This document shows positions 274-6,519 of a stretch of 6,519 nucleotides of DNA, piece by piece. The stretch lies in the NCBI GenBank assembly GCA_001803565.1, contig MHDQ01000270.1, positions 1-6,519 of the forward strand, in the 5' to 3' direction. Source of the DNA: Nitrospinae bacterium RIFCSPLOWO2_12_FULL_45_22. Lineage in GTDB: Bacteria > 2-12-FULL-45-22. A model generated the notes under the pieces. That model worked only from the letters and a program-made list of their open reading frames with translations, was not told where the DNA came from and ran no database searches. Position numbers and translations under genes: made by a program. Numbering within the stretch: the first letter of the stretch is position 1; the number at the start of each line of letters is the position of its first letter.

Positions 274-375
274 TGTTGAATTATTCAGCATAATTAGGTA
301 GCTTTAGAAAAATAGGTAAAAAACGAGCAAAGACATGTTGAATATTTCAGCAATATCATGTTGATTTATTCAGCA
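274..375. promoter_or_regulatory. Three 17-bp palindromic enhancer sites (probable activator binding sites)
   Basis: Three copies of a 17-bp interrupted palindrome occur at 274-290 (TGTTGAATTATTCAGCA), 336-352 (TGTTGAATATTTCAGCA) and 359-375 (TGTTGATTTATTCAGCA). The form is TGTTGAAT-N-ATTCAGCA, two 8-bp half-sites around one base. Centres are at 282, 344 and 367, that is 62 and 23 bp apart, close to whole helical turns. Relative to the predicted start near 522 they lie at about -240, -178 and -155. This is the usual location of binding sites for sigma-54 enhancer-binding proteins, and a sigma-54 promoter lies downstream. The identity of the activator is not visible. The MITE target duplication ends only two bases before the first site. 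Confidence 0.78.
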
Positions 376-495: not shown

Positions 496-510
496 TGGCA
501 CAGTTATTGC
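496..510 (+). promoter_or_regulatory. Sigma-54 (-24/-12) promoter of the operon
   Basis: TGGCAC (496-501), five bases, then TTGC (507-510) match the RpoN consensus TGGCAC-N5-TTGC, with the invariant GG (497-498) and GC (509-510) exactly ten bases apart. The start site is predicted about 12 bases further on, near 521-523, giving a leader of about 75 nt before the first operon gene. Together with three upstream palindromes it forms a typical sigma-54 control region, so transcription should need an ATP-hydrolysing enhancer-binding activator. Confidence 0.85.
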
Positions 511-580
511 CTTTGAGATTAAGTGAGCCGCAAAGCTCCAAAGAGTCCAAGGGAAGGAATGAAGGGTTATGGTTTTTAAA

Positions 581-595: not shown

Positions 596-1351
596 ATGAA
601 ACGTCAAATCAGATATCCAGCCACCATCATTGCTACCATTGTTATTGCCCTGGTAGCTATCCCGGCCTTGGCAGTGTTGGGATTTATGTTGCGATATGTA
701 TTATTAGCAGCAATACCCATTGTCCTCTTGGGGTATGTCCTGGCCTATGCTGTAAGCCCTTGGGTAGGGAAAGTCTTTTCACAAGAAGCCCTCGATAGAT
801 CTATGTTGAATGGTTTTAAGGTGCCCAAAGGGGTCCTATTCCATCCCTTCCACAGTTGGGTAAAGTTAGAATCCCCAAAAAAAGCAGCTATTGGGGTAGA
901 TGACTTTGTGCAAAAGGTCTTGGGTCCGTTAGAAGCGATTGATACACCTCCGGTAGGGACAAGAATCCAGCGAGAAGAAAACCTCTTTCAATTGAGGCGC
1001 GGAGACCGAACAGTAGATATAAAATCTCCCATTGCCGGTACCGTCTGTTCAGTCAATGACAAGCTTTCTCGGTATCCTACCCTGGTCAACCAGTTCCCTT
1101 ATGGTAAGGGATGGATAGTAAAACTCCGTCCGGATAATCTTAGTGATGACATAAGAAATCTTAGGGTAGCAAACGAGGCGCTGAAATGGTTTCGTGAGGA
1201 GTTGGAGCGATTTCAATCCCTATTGTCACCCCGTCCGCTCCAGGTCCAAATATTACAGGACGGGGGTACAGTAGTGGATGACCTGTGGGCTTACCTAGAT
1301 AATGACACCTGGTTGTCTATCAAGAAAAACTTTTTTAATAACGCGAGTTAG
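596..1351 (+). CDS. Membrane-anchored GcvH-like protein lacking the lipoyl lysine (paralogue 1)
   Basis: From ATG 596 the protein has 251 residues; ATG 569 would add nine. Residues 10-30 and 33-56 form two hydrophobic helices, and the positive start (MKRQIR) suggests both ends are cytoplasmic. Residues about 82-178 match the glycine-cleavage H-protein fold: FHPFHSWVK, GVDDFVQKVLG, SPIAGTVCSVN and YGKGWIVKL parallel the family's H-x-W, G-x-x-x-x-A-x-x-x-LG, P-x-x-G-x-V-x-x-N and G-W blocks. The ESVK lipoylation block is replaced by RRGDR, so the modified lysine becomes D137 in an ungapped alignment. A C-terminal domain (about 182-248) contains QDGG (221-224) and ends in an NFF helix. It is the first gene after the sigma-54 promoter and is followed by a 116-bp gap. 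A role in glycine cleavage is unlikely; a structural or adaptor role beside the Fe-S/NrfD pair is inferred. It may be annotated as glycine cleavage protein H by similarity. Confidence 0.85.
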   Translation: MKRQIRYPATIIATIVIALVAIPALAVLGFMLRYVLLAAIPIVLLGYVLAYAVSPWVGKVFSQEALDRSMLNGFKVPKGVLFHPFHSWVKLESPKKAAIGVDDFVQKVLGPLEAIDTPPVGTRIQREENLFQLRRGDRTVDIKSPIAGTVCSVNDKLSRYPTLVNQFPYGKGWIVKLRPDNLSDDIRNLRVANEALKWFREELERFQSLLSPRPLQVQILQDGGTVVDDLWAYLDNDTWLSIKKNFFNNAS

Positions 1352-1467
1352 AAAGAAGAGCGGGAGTTTTTAGCCTGAAGAAGAAACAGTTCGGAAGCAA
1401 CTGCTTGATGAAAGAGGATAAATAATAAACCTGAATCCAGTGCAAAATTATTTAGGGAGGAGCCGAA

Positions 1468-2376
1468 ATGGATCTCAAGAGAAGGGATTTTCTCAAAATA
1501 ATTGGTTTAAGCACCGGAAGTGGACTTTTAGGTTGGGTGGGGACGGCTAATGCTTATGTAACTAAACCTGATCCACATGATTCTGCAGCTATGTTAGTTG
1601 ATACCACCAGGTGTGTCGGGTGCCGTACCTGTGAGATGGTTTGTGCCGAGGTGAATAATTTACCAGAGCCAGCTCTTTTGGGCGACGAATCTATCTTTGA
1701 GCAAAAAAGAACAACGGAAACATATGCTCACACGGTGGTTAATCGCTATCCTAACCCGACAGGTGAGCCGGTATATGTCAAGACCCAATGTCGACACTGC
1801 AACGAACCGGCCTGTGCTTCTGCTTGCCTGGTAAAGGCAATGGAAAAGACACCGGAAGGTCCGGTTGTTTACCATGAGGAAAGGTGTATGGGATGTCGCT
1901 ACTGCATGGTAGCCTGTCCCTTCTATATCCCAAAATTCGAATGGTCAAAAGCCGTTCCCGCTGTCCGCAAGTGTATATTTTGTTTTGAACGCCAGAAAGA
2001 AGGATTGGAACCCGCTTGTGCGGAGAACTGTCCAGCGGAGGCCCTTAAGTTTGGCAAGCGGAAAGAACTGCTTGAAATTGCCAGAACCCGCATCTACCAA
2101 AATCCTGATCAGTATATTCACCATATCTATGGAGAGCATGAGGTCGGTGGTACGGGGTGGCTGTATCTCTCCAATATACCATTCGAGCAATTGGGTTTCC
2201 GAATGGACCTCGGAACGAGGCCTTATCCAGAATTTACCAAAGGCTTTCTCACAGCAGTGCCCCTGGTGCTTCTTATTTGGCCAGCTCTGCTCGGAGGTGT
2301 ATATGCCTTTACAAACCAACGAGAGCAAATGAACAATACAGAAAAAGCTGTTAGCCCAATCAAAAAGGAGGTCTGA
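1468..2376 (+). CDS. Tat-exported four-cluster [4Fe-4S] ferredoxin subunit, HybA type
   Basis: The 302-residue protein starts after AGGGAGG (1454-1460), seven bases before the ATG. The N-terminus has a twin-arginine signal (KRRDFLK, residues 4-10), a hydrophobic stretch and a likely cleavage after ANA (27-29), which places the mature protein in the periplasm. Sixteen cysteines form four cluster motifs: C49/C52/C55/C59, C108/C111/C116/C120, C140/C143/C146/C150 and C169/C172/C184/C188, the arrangement of the DmsB/NrfC/HybA electron-transfer family. A C-terminal helix (about 250-271) anchors it to the membrane, as in HybA. It should relay electrons between the NrfD-type subunit encoded next, two bases downstream, and another redox partner. 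That partner, normally a hydrogenase or molybdopterin enzyme, is not encoded in this window. Confidence 0.93.
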   Translation: MDLKRRDFLKIIGLSTGSGLLGWVGTANAYVTKPDPHDSAAMLVDTTRCVGCRTCEMVCAEVNNLPEPALLGDESIFEQKRTTETYAHTVVNRYPNPTGEPVYVKTQCRHCNEPACASACLVKAMEKTPEGPVVYHEERCMGCRYCMVACPFYIPKFEWSKAVPAVRKCIFCFERQKEGLEPACAENCPAEALKFGKRKELLEIARTRIYQNPDQYIHHIYGEHEVGGTGWLYLSNIPFEQLGFRMDLGTRPYPEFTKGFLTAVPLVLLIWPALLGGVYAFTNQREQMNNTEKAVSPIKKEV

Positions 2377-2378
2377 TC

Positions 2379-3611
2379 ATGGCCGAATACATTCAATATC
2401 CAGAGAAAATATATACTCCTCATTTATGGATTAGGGAAAAATTCCTTATGGGGATGAGTTTGTCCGCCTATATAAAGAAGCAGTTTACCCCGTTCAATGT
2501 TGTAGCTGGTCTCATCCTCCTTGTAGGACTGCCTTTTATCGCTCTCCGCTTCTCTCAGGGGCTTGCAGCGGTGACGAATGCCAATAGCGACTATCCCTGG
2601 GGGTTCATTCTTAGTTTCGGACTTTTTGCCGGGGTCCCTTTAGCCGCCGGAGGATATGTCCTTGCCTCTACTGTATACCTCTTCGGGCTTAAACAATATC
2701 ATCCCCTACTCCGCCCTGCTATACTTACAGGCTTTCTCGGTTATTTCTTTGCAGTTGTGTATCTACTCATTGACCTGGGACGTCCCTGGCGACTCCCCTA
2801 TCCCATGTTTATTTACTACGGTCCCGCGTCGGTCCTGTTTCTGGTGGCCTGGCATGTGGCCCTATACCTATCGGTTCAATTTCTCGAGTTCTGTCCGGCT
2901 ATATTCGAGTGGCTCGGTACAGAGAGATTCCGGCGGTGGGCCATGAGAATAACCATAGGGGCCACCATCTTCGGTGTGATCCTCTCGACCCTTCACCAGT
3001 CTGCCCTCGGTGCCCTCTTCCTCCTCGCACCAGGGAAACTTCATCCACTTTGGTACTCACCGTTGATTCCAGTATTTTTCTTCATCTCAAGCATCTTCGC
3101 GGGACTTTCAGTGGTGATTGCTGAAAGTACCCTATCTAGCCGTTTCTTTAAAGACAAAGCTGACTACCACTATCTAGCGAGTCTCGACAACCTCACCCTT
3201 GGCCTTGGTAAAGCAGCTTCGGTTGTCCTCTTTACCTACTTTGGCCTGGAGGTAATTGGTGTTGCCCACGGGAACCACTGGGCCCTCCTGGGTACACCTT
3301 TTGGCTATTGGTTCCTCATAGAGATACTTATGTTCGTCCTTCTTCCTTGCTTTCTCTTTGCCTTTGGGACTCAGAAGAAGAAGGTAGGCCTTGTCCGCTT
3401 TACGGCTTTTCTAACTATCACAGGTATTATTTTCAACCGGCTTACGGTGGTACTTATTGCATTAAACTGGAATCTGCCGCACCACGAAATTCCTTATTGG
3501 AAGGAATTTGTTATTGTTTTAACTATCATTACCATTCACTTGCTCACGTTCCGTTGGATCGTTAACCGGATGCCTGTCCTCCGGGAACACCCCGATTATA
3601 AAGGCATGTAG
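2379..3611 (+). CDS. HybB/NrfD-type quinone-interacting integral membrane subunit
   Basis: The 410-residue protein starts seven bases after AAGGAGG (2365-2371), inside the end of the ferredoxin gene; the two reading frames are two bases apart. It is strongly hydrophobic, with about ten predicted helices, and belongs to the NrfD/PsrC superfamily. Signature stretches are YPWGFILSFGLFAGVPLAAG (72-91), DLGRPWR (132-138), STLHQSALG (203-211) and KLHPLWYSPLIPVFFF (220-235); the last two resemble HybB of hydrogenase 2 closely. The C-terminal FRWIVNRMPVLREHP is also HybB-like. The family exchanges electrons between quinones and a periplasmic four-cluster ferredoxin and has no heme of its own; some members may couple this to proton movement. 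With the HybA-type gene it forms the redox core of the operon. The hybB symbol is withheld because no hydrogenase is encoded nearby. Confidence 0.93.
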   Translation: MAEYIQYPEKIYTPHLWIREKFLMGMSLSAYIKKQFTPFNVVAGLILLVGLPFIALRFSQGLAAVTNANSDYPWGFILSFGLFAGVPLAAGGYVLASTVYLFGLKQYHPLLRPAILTGFLGYFFAVVYLLIDLGRPWRLPYPMFIYYGPASVLFLVAWHVALYLSVQFLEFCPAIFEWLGTERFRRWAMRITIGATIFGVILSTLHQSALGALFLLAPGKLHPLWYSPLIPVFFFISSIFAGLSVVIAESTLSSRFFKDKADYHYLASLDNLTLGLGKAASVVLFTYFGLEVIGVAHGNHWALLGTPFGYWFLIEILMFVLLPCFLFAFGTQKKKVGLVRFTAFLTITGIIFNRLTVVLIALNWNLPHHEIPYWKEFVIVLTIITIHLLTFRWIVNRMPVLREHPDYKGM

Positions 3612-3629
3612 AAGGGAGGAGATATTATT

Positions 3630-4337
3630 ATGGAACATCTATTTATGACTTCAGTCAAAGGAATAGAATATATAATAGCGGTGATATTTCTCTTTACCTT
3701 CATTGTTTTTTGGCGCGTATTAAATATTGGTGGGATTCCGGCCATGGAGTCCTTATCGGTTGCAGCCGGTGGAGTTGTAAAAAAGATAGGGGATATGGTT
3801 GATTGGTTTTTGGTTCCCGATCGGCTATATTTTCACCCCGGACATGCATGGGTAAAAGTAGAGGATGGTGATGTGGTGCGGGTTGGAATGGATGATTTTG
3901 CCCAAAAACTGGTAGGTAAGATTGACGCCCTCAACCTACCGAAGGTCGGCTCCACTGTGAGTCAAGGAGAAAGAGGGTGGACAGTCCATTTAGGATCAAA
4001 ATCCGTTGATCTTCTTTCCCCAATAGATGGAAAGATCGTTGCCGTTAATGAGGCACTATTTAATGCACCGAAGCATATAAATGAGGCCCCTTATGAGGAG
4101 GGGTGGTTGATGAAGGTTAAAGTCCCGAGACTTTCGGCAAACTTAAAGAATCTCCTGTCGGGCAACCTGGCCAGGAGATGGATGGAAGAGGTGAGTGGTA
4201 ATCTACGTTTAAGATTGGGGGCCAATCTTGGCTTGGTGTATCAAGATGGTGGTTTACCCGTTGAAGGGCTAGCCAAAAACTTGGATCGGGATAAATGGGA
4301 TGAGATAGCAAAAGAATTTTTTCTGACTCTAGATTAA
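3630..4337 (+). CDS. Membrane-anchored GcvH-like protein lacking the canonical lipoyl site (paralogue 2)
   Basis: The 235-residue protein starts eight bases after GGGAGGAG (3614-3621), 18 bases beyond the NrfD gene. One hydrophobic helix (about 12-33) is followed by positive residues (R29, K51, K52), which suggests a cytoplasmic C-terminal part. Residues 66-165 have the H-protein fold: YFHPGHAWVKV, GMDDFAQKLVG, LPKVG, SPIDGKIVAVN and YEEGWLMKV. Where GcvH has ESVK-A, this protein reads HLGSKS: an ungapped alignment puts S123 at the lipoyl position, with K124 one residue off, so modification is doubtful but not excluded. The C-terminal domain (about 168-233) shares NLKNL, RRWMEEV, YQDGGLP (204-210) and an EFF end with paralogues 1 and 3. 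Near its end the DNA is very similar to the end of the next gene. Function is unknown; an adaptor or assembly role for the membrane redox pair is inferred. Confidence 0.85.
   Translation: MEHLFMTSVKGIEYIIAVIFLFTFIVFWRVLNIGGIPAMESLSVAAGGVVKKIGDMVDWFLVPDRLYFHPGHAWVKVEDGDVVRVGMDDFAQKLVGKIDALNLPKVGSTVSQGERGWTVHLGSKSVDLLSPIDGKIVAVNEALFNAPKHINEAPYEEGWLMKVKVPRLSANLKNLLSGNLARRWMEEVSGNLRLRLGANLGLVYQDGGLPVEGLAKNLDRDKWDEIAKEFFLTLD
4225..4258 (+). repeat. Copy 1 of a 34-bp direct repeat encoding the QDGG motif
   Basis: This stretch near the 3' end of paralogue 2 matches 4745-4778 in the next gene at 29 of 34 bases, in the same codon register. A run of 15 identical bases (AGATGGTGGTTTACC) occurs at 4244-4258 and 4764-4778. 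The copies encode LGLVYQDGGLP and LGMVYPDGGLP. Confidence 0.75.
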
Positions 4338-4373
4338 TCAAGGGGGGTATGGAACTAACTCTCGTTTTTTAAC

Positions 4374-4393
4374 TGGCAGAGCTGATTCTGCCA
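4374..4393 (+). repeat. Intercistronic hairpin before the small membrane protein gene
   Basis: TGGCAGA (4374-4380) and TCTGCCA (4387-4393) form a perfect 7-bp stem with a 6-base loop. The stem ends five bases before the AAGGAGG ribosome binding site. No T-run follows, so it is not an intrinsic terminator; T6 (4365-4370) comes before the stem, which fits a terminator only on the opposite strand and weakly. It may protect or process the message or tune translation of the next gene. Confidence 0.4.
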
Positions 4394-4413
4394 CTGATAA
4401 GGAGGTGGCTATC

Positions 4414-4809
4414 ATGCAACGGTATTATGGCAGTACCAAGGTCAAGGCAGGGTTTTATTGGAACCCAAGAGCCTGGGATATAGCGCCTATACCAGGCAAA
4501 GGAGGGATATTACCGGGAGATATGGATACTTCTTATTTGAGGGTCCCTATGGTATTGATGCTTTTTGGCGCCCCGGTGGCAGGTCTGTTTTATGTGATCA
4601 CCCTCCCAATTTACCTACCCTTAATCATTCTTGGCATAGCCTTTAACTTCCTTGGACAGAAAATTTACCAGTTGGTCCCAAAACCGGCATCCAAGTTAGT
4701 AGACAAATCAAGAAGTGATAATGGGGAAGTAATTTTTGACTCTCATCTGGGTATGGTATATCCAGATGGTGGTTTACCTATGGAAGATGAGGCTGAAGAT
4801 GAACGCTGA
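4414..4809 (+). CDS. Small membrane protein ending in the QDGG-like motif
   Basis: ATG 4414 follows AAGGAGG (4399-4405) by eight bases; a longer frame from GTG 4405 would overlap that site, so the 131-residue form is preferred. Residues 44-80 are almost wholly hydrophobic, with prolines at 64 and 69, and could form a helical hairpin. Positive residues on both sides (K9, K11, R19, K29, R43; K83, K90, K94, K98) suggest both ends are cytoplasmic. The N-terminus (AGFYWNPRAWDIAPI) resembles no domain I can name. The last part reads LGMVYPDGGLPMEDEAEDER, nearly the same as LGLVYQDGGLPVE of paralogue 2, although no GcvH domain is present. Its position between two GcvH-like genes and the shared tail suggest it belongs to the same complex. 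The next gene begins inside its end. Confidence 0.8.
   Translation: MQRYYGSTKVKAGFYWNPRAWDIAPIPGKGGILPGDMDTSYLRVPMVLMLFGAPVAGLFYVITLPIYLPLIILGIAFNFLGQKIYQLVPKPASKLVDKSRSDNGEVIFDSHLGMVYPDGGLPMEDEAEDER
4745..4778 (+). repeat. Copy 2 of the 34-bp direct repeat encoding the QDGG-like motif
   Basis: This is the second copy of the repeat at 4225-4258, with 29 of 34 bases identical and in the same codon register. It lies in the 3' end of the small membrane protein gene and points to duplication or recombination between the two gene ends, or to strong conservation of the motif. Confidence 0.75.
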
Positions 4810-5527
4810 AAGAAAGCGGATGCCTATTGTTCCTAATGGGGATTTAGAGTGTGTCTGGATGTGGGCAGGGATTGTTACATATAAATTATGTGATTGCAAC
4901 TATGAATGTGAGCACTGCAGTTTTGATAGGGCCATGAAAGAATGTGATTCGGTCCCTTTCCATGGGGAAGTAGGGGGTTACAAGCTCTGCCGCACCTTAT
5001 TTTACCATTCAAGCCATACCTGGGCAGGGGTAGAAGAAGGTGGACATCTCCGTATTGGTCTGGATGATTTTGGTCAGAACATCCTGGGACCAATTCAAAG
5101 GATCTCCCTTCCAAAATTAGGAGCTAGAATAATGGAGGGGAGCATTCAGGTAAGAGGCCGGGGCATAGATGTTCCTCTATGCCCGCCTGCTGAAGGGTAT
5201 ATTGTTGAGGTGAATAAGCAATTGCTGACTTTTCCTGCCTTGATGAATAGTTACCCCTACGATAAAGGATGGGTTGTCCTCATTCGGCCCGTTCATCTTT
5301 TGAAGAGCCTGAGGCAACTTTTTTATGGCTATCAAGCGGAAGAATGGTATCGGAGAGAGGTCTCCCGATTGGGAAGCGCCATTGCCCAGGTAACGCATCT
5401 ACCGCCATCCAGGGTAGGCCCTACCATGCAGGATGGAGGCATTCCAATATTACAGATCCTCGATGCGATAGAGCCGAATGAAGCCTCGAAGATTATAAGA
5501 CAATTTTTCATCCGTAACTGCAATTAG
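4799..5527 (+). CDS. Soluble GcvH-like protein with N-terminal cysteine cluster (paralogue 3)
   Basis: The preferred start is ATG 4799 (242 residues), with GAGG (4789-4792) six bases upstream. It overlaps the previous gene by 11 bases, implying translational coupling; ATG 4787 or 4820 are alternatives. No membrane segment is present, so the protein is probably cytoplasmic. Residues 18-40 hold C18-x12-C31-x-C33-x3-C37-x2-C40 around AGIVTYKLCDCNYECEHC, followed by SFDRAM: a possible Fe-S, zinc or thiol site. Residues about 64-163 are the H-protein fold: YHSSHTWAGV, GLDDFGQNILG, LPKLG, PPAEGYIVEVN and YDKGWVVLI. No lysine occurs between K106 and K140, so the lipoyl lysine is clearly absent. The C-terminal domain has AEEWYRREV, MQDGGIP (210-216) and a QFF end like the other paralogues. 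It is the last gene of the operon. The role is unknown; a soluble partner or redox-sensing adaptor is inferred. Confidence 0.85.
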   Translation: MNAERKRMPIVPNGDLECVWMWAGIVTYKLCDCNYECEHCSFDRAMKECDSVPFHGEVGGYKLCRTLFYHSSHTWAGVEEGGHLRIGLDDFGQNILGPIQRISLPKLGARIMEGSIQVRGRGIDVPLCPPAEGYIVEVNKQLLTFPALMNSYPYDKGWVVLIRPVHLLKSLRQLFYGYQAEEWYRREVSRLGSAIAQVTHLPPSRVGPTMQDGGIPILQILDAIEPNEASKIIRQFFIRNCN

Positions 5528-5630
5528 GACTTCTCCTATATTATCCCACCAAAAGATAAAGAAATGTAAAACCATGAATCTTATTGTTTACATTCGAGAG
5601 GCATTTTGTTCTGGAAATAGAATTTTATTT

Positions 5631-5761
5631 GGGTGTGGCTATTTTCGGTCAGAAACCAATTAACCCTGTAGTGGCAGAGCTTGCTCTGCTAGGAATGTCG
5701 AGCAAGCTCGACCACTACAAATTGTATTATATAGGAGTTATGACAAATAATAGCCACACCC
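5631..5761. mobile_element. MITE-like element with 13-bp inverted repeats and 9-bp target duplication
   Basis: The 131-bp element has perfect 13-bp ends, GGGTGTGGCTATT (5631-5643) and AATAGCCACACCC (5749-5761). It is flanked by an exact 9-bp direct repeat ATTTTATTT (5622-5630 and 5762-5770), read as a target-site duplication, though AT-rich targets repeat by chance more readily. It encodes no transposase. The parent family is not clear from the ends; families making 8- to 10-bp duplications (IS256, IS4, ISAs1) are candidates only. The middle carries a separate strong palindrome. Confidence 0.78.
5667..5719. repeat. REP-like compound palindrome inside the second MITE
   Basis: TGTAGTGG (5667-5674) pairs with CCACTACA (5712-5719). 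Within it, GCAGAGCTTGCTCTGC (5674-5689 region) and GTCGAGCAAGCTCGAC (5697-5712 region) are each near-palindromes that also pair with each other apart from a few mismatches. It can fold as one long stem or as two short hairpins. It resembles dispersed extragenic palindromes and may have its own history, separate from the element around it. Confidence 0.75.
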
Positions 5762-5961
5762 ATTTTATTTCATATGGATCAAACCTCTTGAATATCGGTT
5801 ATGAGATGGGTAAAAATAATTTATTCAGGCAAAGCCCTGCTGTATGTGCCACTGAGGCACACCAAGTAAGAATGATATAGTATAATTATTTGCTATGATG
5901 GGGTTTTAGCCATGCATCCTTACATAGACTTTGGTTGGCGAAAGTACTGCACGATAATGAG

Positions 5962-5990
5962 TTGACAGTTGGTACGAGGTCTGATATAGT
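5962..5990 (+). promoter_or_regulatory. Sigma-70 type promoter of the sensor gene
   Basis: TTGACA (5962-5967) is a perfect -35 box; 17 bases later TATAGT (5985-5990) matches the -10 consensus at five of six positions. The start is predicted near 5996-5998, leaving a leader of about 80 nt before the sensor gene. The sensor is therefore expected to be made by the housekeeping sigma factor, unlike the operon upstream. Confidence 0.75.
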
Positions 5991-6032: not shown

Positions 6033-6078
6033 TATCCTTTTATAGTGATAAACATCCTATCTTTGATGGTGAATGAGC

Positions 6079-6519
6079 ATGCGTCCTTTTGCTTTTAACC
6101 TCTCCACTAAACTACTCATTTGCCTCATTGGCAGCATGGCGTTCATCTTTGGCATCATAGGGGTAATGAGTGTAAGAATGCACCGCCAGCATTTATTGGA
6201 AGCTATCGTCATGAGTGCCGACCGGACCAGCGATGTGATCAGGCGCAGTACTCGTTACTCCATGTTAAAAGATGAACGGAAGGTGGTCTACCAAATTATC
6301 AACACTATTGCCCATGAGCCGGGGATGATAAAGATCAGGATTTTCAACAAAGAGGGCAAGATTACCTTCTCCACTGATCCACTAGAAATCAACTCCTTTG
6401 TCAATAAACAGGCTGAGGCCTGTTACGGATGTCATAGTCGTGCCCAGCCCCTAAGTAAGCTCTCCAGCCCAGACCGCTCCCGGGATTATTACACTCCGGA
6501 TAAAAAACACGTCCTGGGT
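6079..6519 (+). CDS. Membrane sensor protein with periplasmic c-type heme motif, probable histidine kinase (5' part)
   Basis: An open frame of 147 codons runs off the right edge. A stop at 6070-6072 limits the start to ATG 6073 or ATG 6079; the latter has GGTGA six bases upstream and is slightly preferred. Residues 11-31 form a signal-anchor helix. The following region (about 34-147) looks like a periplasmic sensor domain: SADRTSDVIRRSTRYSMLKDE, then IKIRIFNKEGKITFSTDP, then CYGCH (115-119), a c-type heme attachment motif. This arrangement is typical of heme-containing sensor kinases in anaerobic respirers, where it would report redox state or a gaseous ligand. The kinase part would lie beyond the window, so the type of output domain is inferred. 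It has its own sigma-70 promoter. A link to control of the upstream operon is possible but unproven. Confidence 0.82.
   Translation, partial: MRPFAFNLSTKLLICLIGSMAFIFGIIGVMSVRMHRQHLLEAIVMSADRTSDVIRRSTRYSMLKDERKVVYQIINTIAHEPGMIKIRIFNKEGKITFSTDPLEINSFVNKQAEACYGCHSRAQPLSKLSSPDRSRDYYTPDKKHVLG

Follow-up and report, generated by a model that had tools for sequence, protein, structure and literature searches.

Gene organization of the locus

We analyzed a 6,519-nucleotide stretch of DNA from Nitrospinae bacterium RIFCSPLOWO2_12_FULL_45_22, referred to here as the window, which is the whole of its source contig (MHDQ01000270.1) in a genome (G000) that is 85% complete. The window carries an operon with three genes for GcvH-like proteins without a lipoyl lysine, here named H1, H2 and H3, interspersed with an HmcB/HmcC-like pair of redox subunits and followed by the beginning of a sensor kinase gene. 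The three open reading frames (ORFs) that the initial annotation had assigned to GcvH-like proteins were all present at their positions. The features found, all on the positive strand, were as follows:

274-290, 336-352 and 359-375 (+): three upstream palindromes of the TGTTGAATNATTCAGCA type, six strand matches against 0.09 expected
496-511 (+): putative sigma-54 (-24/-12) promoter, TGGCACAGTTATTGCC, 10/10 match to TGGCAC-N5-TTGC
596-1351 (+): H1, with an N-terminal transmembrane region, a lysine-less GcvH domain (RRGDR at the lipoyl block) and a C-terminal extension
1247-1267 (+): QILQDGG in the C-terminal extension of H1
1468-2376 (+): HmcB-like, putatively periplasmic iron-sulfur subunit with a twin-arginine N-terminus and Cys motifs for four [4Fe-4S] clusters (NF045715, Fer4 families)
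2379-3611 (+): HmcC/NrfD-like membrane subunit of a quinone-interacting family (NF045714, PF03916), 9 predicted transmembrane segments
3630-4337 (+): H2, with an HmcD-like single transmembrane helix, a lysine-less GcvH domain and a C-terminal extension
3975-4022 (+): hairpin of H2 at the lipoyl position, GWTVHLGSKSVDLLSP
4227-4253 (+): LGLVYQDGG in the C-terminal extension of H2
4414-4809 (+): E, a small protein with two transmembrane segments, likely starting at ATG 4414, with an acidic tail after the motif
4747-4773 (+): LGMVYPDGG near the C-terminus of E
4799-5527 (+): H3, a soluble protein with a GcvH domain
4850-4918 (+): N-terminal Cys4 motif of H3, C-x12-C-x5-C-x2-C
5147-5188 (+): lysine-free lipoyl hairpin of H3
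5414-5440 (+): C-terminal VGPTMQDGG of H3
5962-5990 (+): sigma-70-like promoter 5' of the kinase gene, 11/12 match with an extended -10, by consensus match only
6073-6519 (+): N-terminal part of a sensor histidine kinase running off the contig, homologous to complete kinases with HAMP-HisKA-HATPase
6421-6435 (+): putatively periplasmic c-type heme motif CYGCH of the kinase

The starts of H1 at 596 and H2 at 3630 were preceded by good ribosome-binding sites, and the H3 start at 4799 overlapped the preceding gene.

The GcvH fold and the missing lysine

A search with the PF01597 profile (cut-off 22.2 bits) gave 86, 96 and 60 bits for H1, H2 and H3, respectively; GCV_H was the sole Pfam match of each, and the three proteins were the only PF01597 matches in the source genome. 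Their scores against the GcvH equivalog model TIGR00527 (82.5, 85.9 and 53.2 bits) were all under its cut-off of 115.85. The AlphaFold2 models (mean predicted local distance difference test values of 89.7 for H2 and 84.7 for H3) matched GcvH crystal structures with Z 18.4 over 131 residues and a root mean square deviation of 1.6 Å for H2, and Z 19.3 over 129 residues and 1.3 Å for H3. These matches spanned residues about 61-190, and lipoyl and biotinyl domains came next with Z of about 5. The proposed GcvH fold was thus borne out by structural overlay for H2 and H3, and by sequence for H1. A canonical GcvH was not found in the source genome at its 85% completeness, although a lipoate ligase/octanoyltransferase-type gene is there. 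No GcvP, GcvT or Lpd genes were present in the window (gcvP and gcvT were not searched for in the genome).

The initial annotation had stated that the ESVK block carrying the lipoyl lysine was replaced in the three proteins, and the alignments agreed with it: the lipoyl lysine of Escherichia coli GcvH aligned to D in RRGDR of H1, to S123 in HLGSKS of H2 and to a lysine-free stretch in H3. K124 of H2, which had been named as a residue that could overturn this claim, did not fall in the lipoyl column, being one residue beyond it. In the H2 model a turn at G122-S123 connects the hairpin strands 115-121 and 124-129, and K124 opens the second strand just past the tip.

Relatives were collected by a scan of genome contigs, which gave 124 related stretches, 80 of them retained. 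In H2-type relatives S and G predominated in the lipoyl column, and the column after it held R (32) or K (31), as well as Q, A, T, G, V, E and H. The residue right after the lipoyl column was basic in H1 and H2 of the window; R occupied this position in 17/24 H1-type relatives, and H3-type proteins showed no pattern. The H2, H3 and mixed alignments contained no invariant or near-invariant lysine. A shift of the lipoyl lysine to K124 was rejected because R is as common as K at that position. In a set of 235 unique PF01597-type sequences, nearly all true GcvHs had an ES/EA-K block, and sequences with a C-terminal extension had K in the lipoyl column in 19 cases and no K there in 174. Those 19 presented mostly GKR or GKK contexts without ES-K surroundings; seven loci of Ignavibacteria/Bacteroidota (L099, L103, L104, L106, L110, L114 and L123) had GcvH-like relatives of this sort, with GKR placing K in the column.

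A quick tree of 137 rows, with many weak inner branches, set these proteins apart from true GcvH (Shimodaira-Hasegawa-like approximate likelihood ratio test, 96) and separated H1-, H2- and H3-type groups, each with several phyla. The lysine was already lost in the ancestor of the H1/H2/H3 clade as a whole. Their earlier description as degenerate copies did not hold: they are three old, conserved lineages, each with conserved extensions of its own. An origin as chance or pseudogene copies was discarded because each lineage has been kept across phyla.

The extensions differ between lineages. H2 is predicted to combine a GcvH domain with a membrane helix resembling HmcD: the HmcD model NF045712 matched 37/57 aligned H2 relatives (best 1e-10) and gave 18.2 bits for H2 of the window (cut-off 34). 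H69-x-G71-H72-x-W74 was invariant or nearly so in the H2 alignment. In H3-type proteins four Cys were invariant in 27 aligned sequences, within an N-terminal consensus C(V/I)WMxAGxxxYKLCDRxxxCExCP(F/L)D that had no Pfam match and is possibly a Zn or Fe-S site.

A module conserved across phyla

The pair between H1 and H2 had been described as HybA/HybB. Models of HmcB (NF045715, 380 bits, cut-off 420) and HmcC (NF045714, 479 bits, cut-off 550) fitted it better than those of HybA/HybB (229 and 221 bits) and were the best families, with all scores below the curated cut-offs. A HybA/HybB hydrogenase module was rejected on these far better scores and on the absence of a hydrogenase gene in the window. 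Neither the HmcA multiheme cytochrome nor HmcF was found among the ORFs and Pfam matches of the window; small multiheme cytochrome genes were present in some relatives only.

The genome-neighborhood survey found HmcB-HmcC-GcvH-like clusters in many phyla, in the conserved order H1-HmcB-HmcC-H2-(small transmembrane protein)-H3, followed or faced by genes for a heme-motif kinase, an NtrC-type regulator and an M54 peptidase. GcvH-like, HmcB and HmcC genes occurred together in 64/80 loci from 17 named phyla, and kinase, regulator and peptidase genes completed the set in 43/80 loci from 15 named phyla plus unplaced records; in the 41 loci of at least 15 kb, the kinase was present in 36 and the peptidase in 35. 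The regulator of the relatives has a receiver (REC) domain, a sigma-54 domain and a Fis-type helix-turn-helix, and their peptidase shows PF07998, the HExxHxxGxxHC motif and a match to solved archaemetzincins. In a sample of 336 genomes, M54 was found in 17/19 of those bearing H2 vs 54/336 overall (p=4e-13), on the same contig in 14 of the 17. M54 was missing from two H2-bearing genomes: the source genome, where the contig breaks off inside the kinase gene, and G195, with a contig of 6.8 kb. Relatives' kinases (L034 9622-11181 and others) carried in the sensor domain a Cx4CH motif (CYNAECH) in addition to CxxCH, and may bind two hemes.

A sister operon type is represented by L047, L061, L065, L069 and L126, where a receiver domain is fused to each of two neighboring GcvH-like proteins. 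These REC-GcvH pairs adjoin the heme kinase in L047, L061, L065 and L126; the L069 stretch begins too near them to show what lies alongside. The fusions speak for a cytoplasmic GcvH domain and link it to the kinase.

The window operon presents the predicted features of NtrC/sigma-54 control: a putative -24/-12 promoter preceded by palindromes, with a REC-sigma54-Fis regulator known from the relatives. Allowing up to one mismatch, sigma-54 sites were found in 20/72 upstream regions of homologous operons vs 5/314 controls. The palindrome, TGTTGAA-N3-TTCARCA, was found with at most two mismatches in 35/71 such regions vs 6/308 controls (p=1.5e-23); where an operon had both, it always preceded the sigma-54 site (17/17), and it was rare 5' of the kinase gene (3/72). 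The cognate NtrC-type regulator probably binds these palindromes.

The C-terminal extensions of the module GcvH-like proteins share a DGG motif. A nine-residue motif of the LGxT(M/L)xDGG type was also found in module proteins otherwise unrelated to them, namely four HmcC tails (L053, L054, L060 and L090) and 12 small transmembrane proteins, 7-15 residues from the C-terminus; the pattern had 2 matches in 9,225 reversed ORFs. All ten REC-GcvH fusions were without the DGG motif. It is a short motif specific to the module. That M54 peptidases in general read this motif was rejected: in 20 regions with stand-alone M54 genes, 0/1,770 ORFs carried it.

Proposed role and alternatives

The initial annotation had suggested a non-lipoyl structural, adaptor or ligand-binding use of the GcvH fold. 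A structural or adaptor use next to a pair of the HmcB/HmcC type has the best support, and on ligand binding the evidence pointed neither way; what the suggestion lacked was the module context, i.e., the sensor kinase, NtrC-type regulator, M54 peptidase, sigma-54 promoter, palindromes and C-terminal motif. We consider it probable that H1, H2 and H3 are lipoate-free adaptor subunits on the cytoplasmic face of a quinone-cytochrome oxidoreductase of the Hmc/Nhc type, placed under its own redox-sensing sigma-54 regulon. The observations behind this reading are the fold, lysine loss, gene order, co-occurrence, promoter and palindromes, motif and REC fusions, obtained by sequence analysis or structure prediction; the electron path, topology, adaptor role and regulator binding are what we infer. 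NrfD-type subunits interact with quinones and have no redox cofactors of their own (PMC8076601). Electrons would move between the quinone pool and a c-type cytochrome partner in the periplasm by way of the NrfD-like HmcC and the periplasmic HmcB with its four [4Fe-4S] clusters. H1 and H2, anchored in the membrane, would form with the soluble H3 an adaptor layer on the cytoplasmic face, in the place of HmcF in classical Hmc; the tethering, REC fusions, lysine loss and gene order point to such a layer. The periplasmic heme-motif sensor kinase would phosphorylate the NtrC-type regulator, which would bind the upstream palindromes and activate the sigma-54 promoter, turning the operon on. The C-terminal LGxT(M/L)xDGG would mark proteins for a common partner, for which the cytoplasmic M54 metallopeptidase is one candidate, a speculative one. 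A fuller scheme, in which the motif is a cytoplasmic tag read or cut by M54, and a heme-sensing sigma-54 switch and tagged turnover or maturation together control a quinone-linked complex with a lipoate-free GcvH-fold scaffold, is doubtful; if true, it would make this a regulated respiratory complex of a new kind, shared by many phyla.

Several points weigh against the adaptor reading. HmcB and HmcC score below their equivalog cut-offs, so the electron partner may differ, and no catalytic subunit was constant across module loci. The membrane side of the GcvH domains is suggested by the REC fusions and the charge pattern. The regulator and peptidase are not seen in the window because the contig ends within the kinase, and M54 was not found in the rest of the source genome (85% complete). 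Since stand-alone M54 genes lack DGG neighbors, the link between peptidase and motif is one of co-occurrence.

A signaling role was also considered, in which HmcBC senses the redox state of quinone or cytochrome and the signal reaches the heme kinase and receivers through the GcvH-fold domains, electron transfer being secondary. The REC-GcvH fusions, most of them beside a heme kinase, and the kinase in most large loci speak for it, but the main-module GcvH proteins lack REC and the regulator is of plain NtrC type with its target promoter before the operon, so transcriptional control suffices; we regard this role as unlikely. Less likely still is that the GcvH-like domains act as redox carriers by binding a small ligand or carrying a metal or Fe-S cofactor: the four invariant Cys of H3 and the conserved H69-x-G71-H72-x-W74 of H2 would suit such a function, but H1 and H2 have no such Cys motif and the Cys4 may hold zinc in a structural role. 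That K124 of H2, or the GKR lysine of relatives, carries lipoate or another acyl group is hardly credible, in spite of the K beside or in the column of some relatives and the lipoate ligase/octanoyltransferase-type gene of the source genome, given that R is as frequent beside the column and Q, T, V and A also occur, that H1 and H3 of the window have no such lysine, that the ES-K context is gone, and that moving the lysine by one place in E2 lipoyl domains abolishes lipoylation.

The adaptor reading places the module beside several known systems. Nhc is among the NrfD-type complexes (PMC8076601). As in Hmc (HmcABCDEF) and Nhc (NhcABCD), HmcB- and then HmcC-like subunits, scoring below the equivalog cut-offs, are followed by a putative HmcD-like helix; unlike in them, this helix bears a GcvH domain and is accompanied by two further GcvH-fold proteins, and HmcA and HmcF are not in the window. 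The module proteins share fold (Z 18-19) and landmarks with GcvH of glycine cleavage and differ from it in the missing lysine, the transmembrane or Cys-rich N-terminus, the DGG extension and their separate clade. The GcvH fold also serves outside glycine cleavage in LbpA of sHdr sulfur oxidation, likewise encoded in a redox gene cluster, and in further GcvH-like proteins (GcvH-L, TIGR03077), but LbpA strictly conserves the lipoyl lysine (PMC6067878), whereas the module proteins do not; no shdr genes were found in the window and none of its identified genes is Hdr-like. NtrC/sigma-54 two-component systems have the same kinase, REC-AAA-Fis regulator, upstream sites and -24/-12 promoter, and the module differs in the putatively periplasmic CxxCH heme motif of its kinase and in one palindrome conserved across phyla before one module. 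Its peptidase, an archaemetzincin by family and motif, is unlike other M54 enzymes in being a fixed partner.

The module is apparently an undescribed variant of the Hmc/Nhc type: no description was found in the full-text literature searched, subscription journals being mostly outside its scope. It has apparently gone unnoticed in at least 15 phyla, many of them uncultured, and would couple a redox complex of the membrane with a sensor of its own, with the GcvH fold retained for a lipoate-independent job; 'GcvH' annotations are misleading in genomes with the module. The conserved palindrome, nine-residue motif and Cys4 motif offer ready tests, and Syntrophus-type bacteria are among the carriers, so the module can be probed near cultured organisms. 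The 98-aa ORF at 5584-5880, between H3 and the kinase gene, had no match to module proteins and is probably not a gene.

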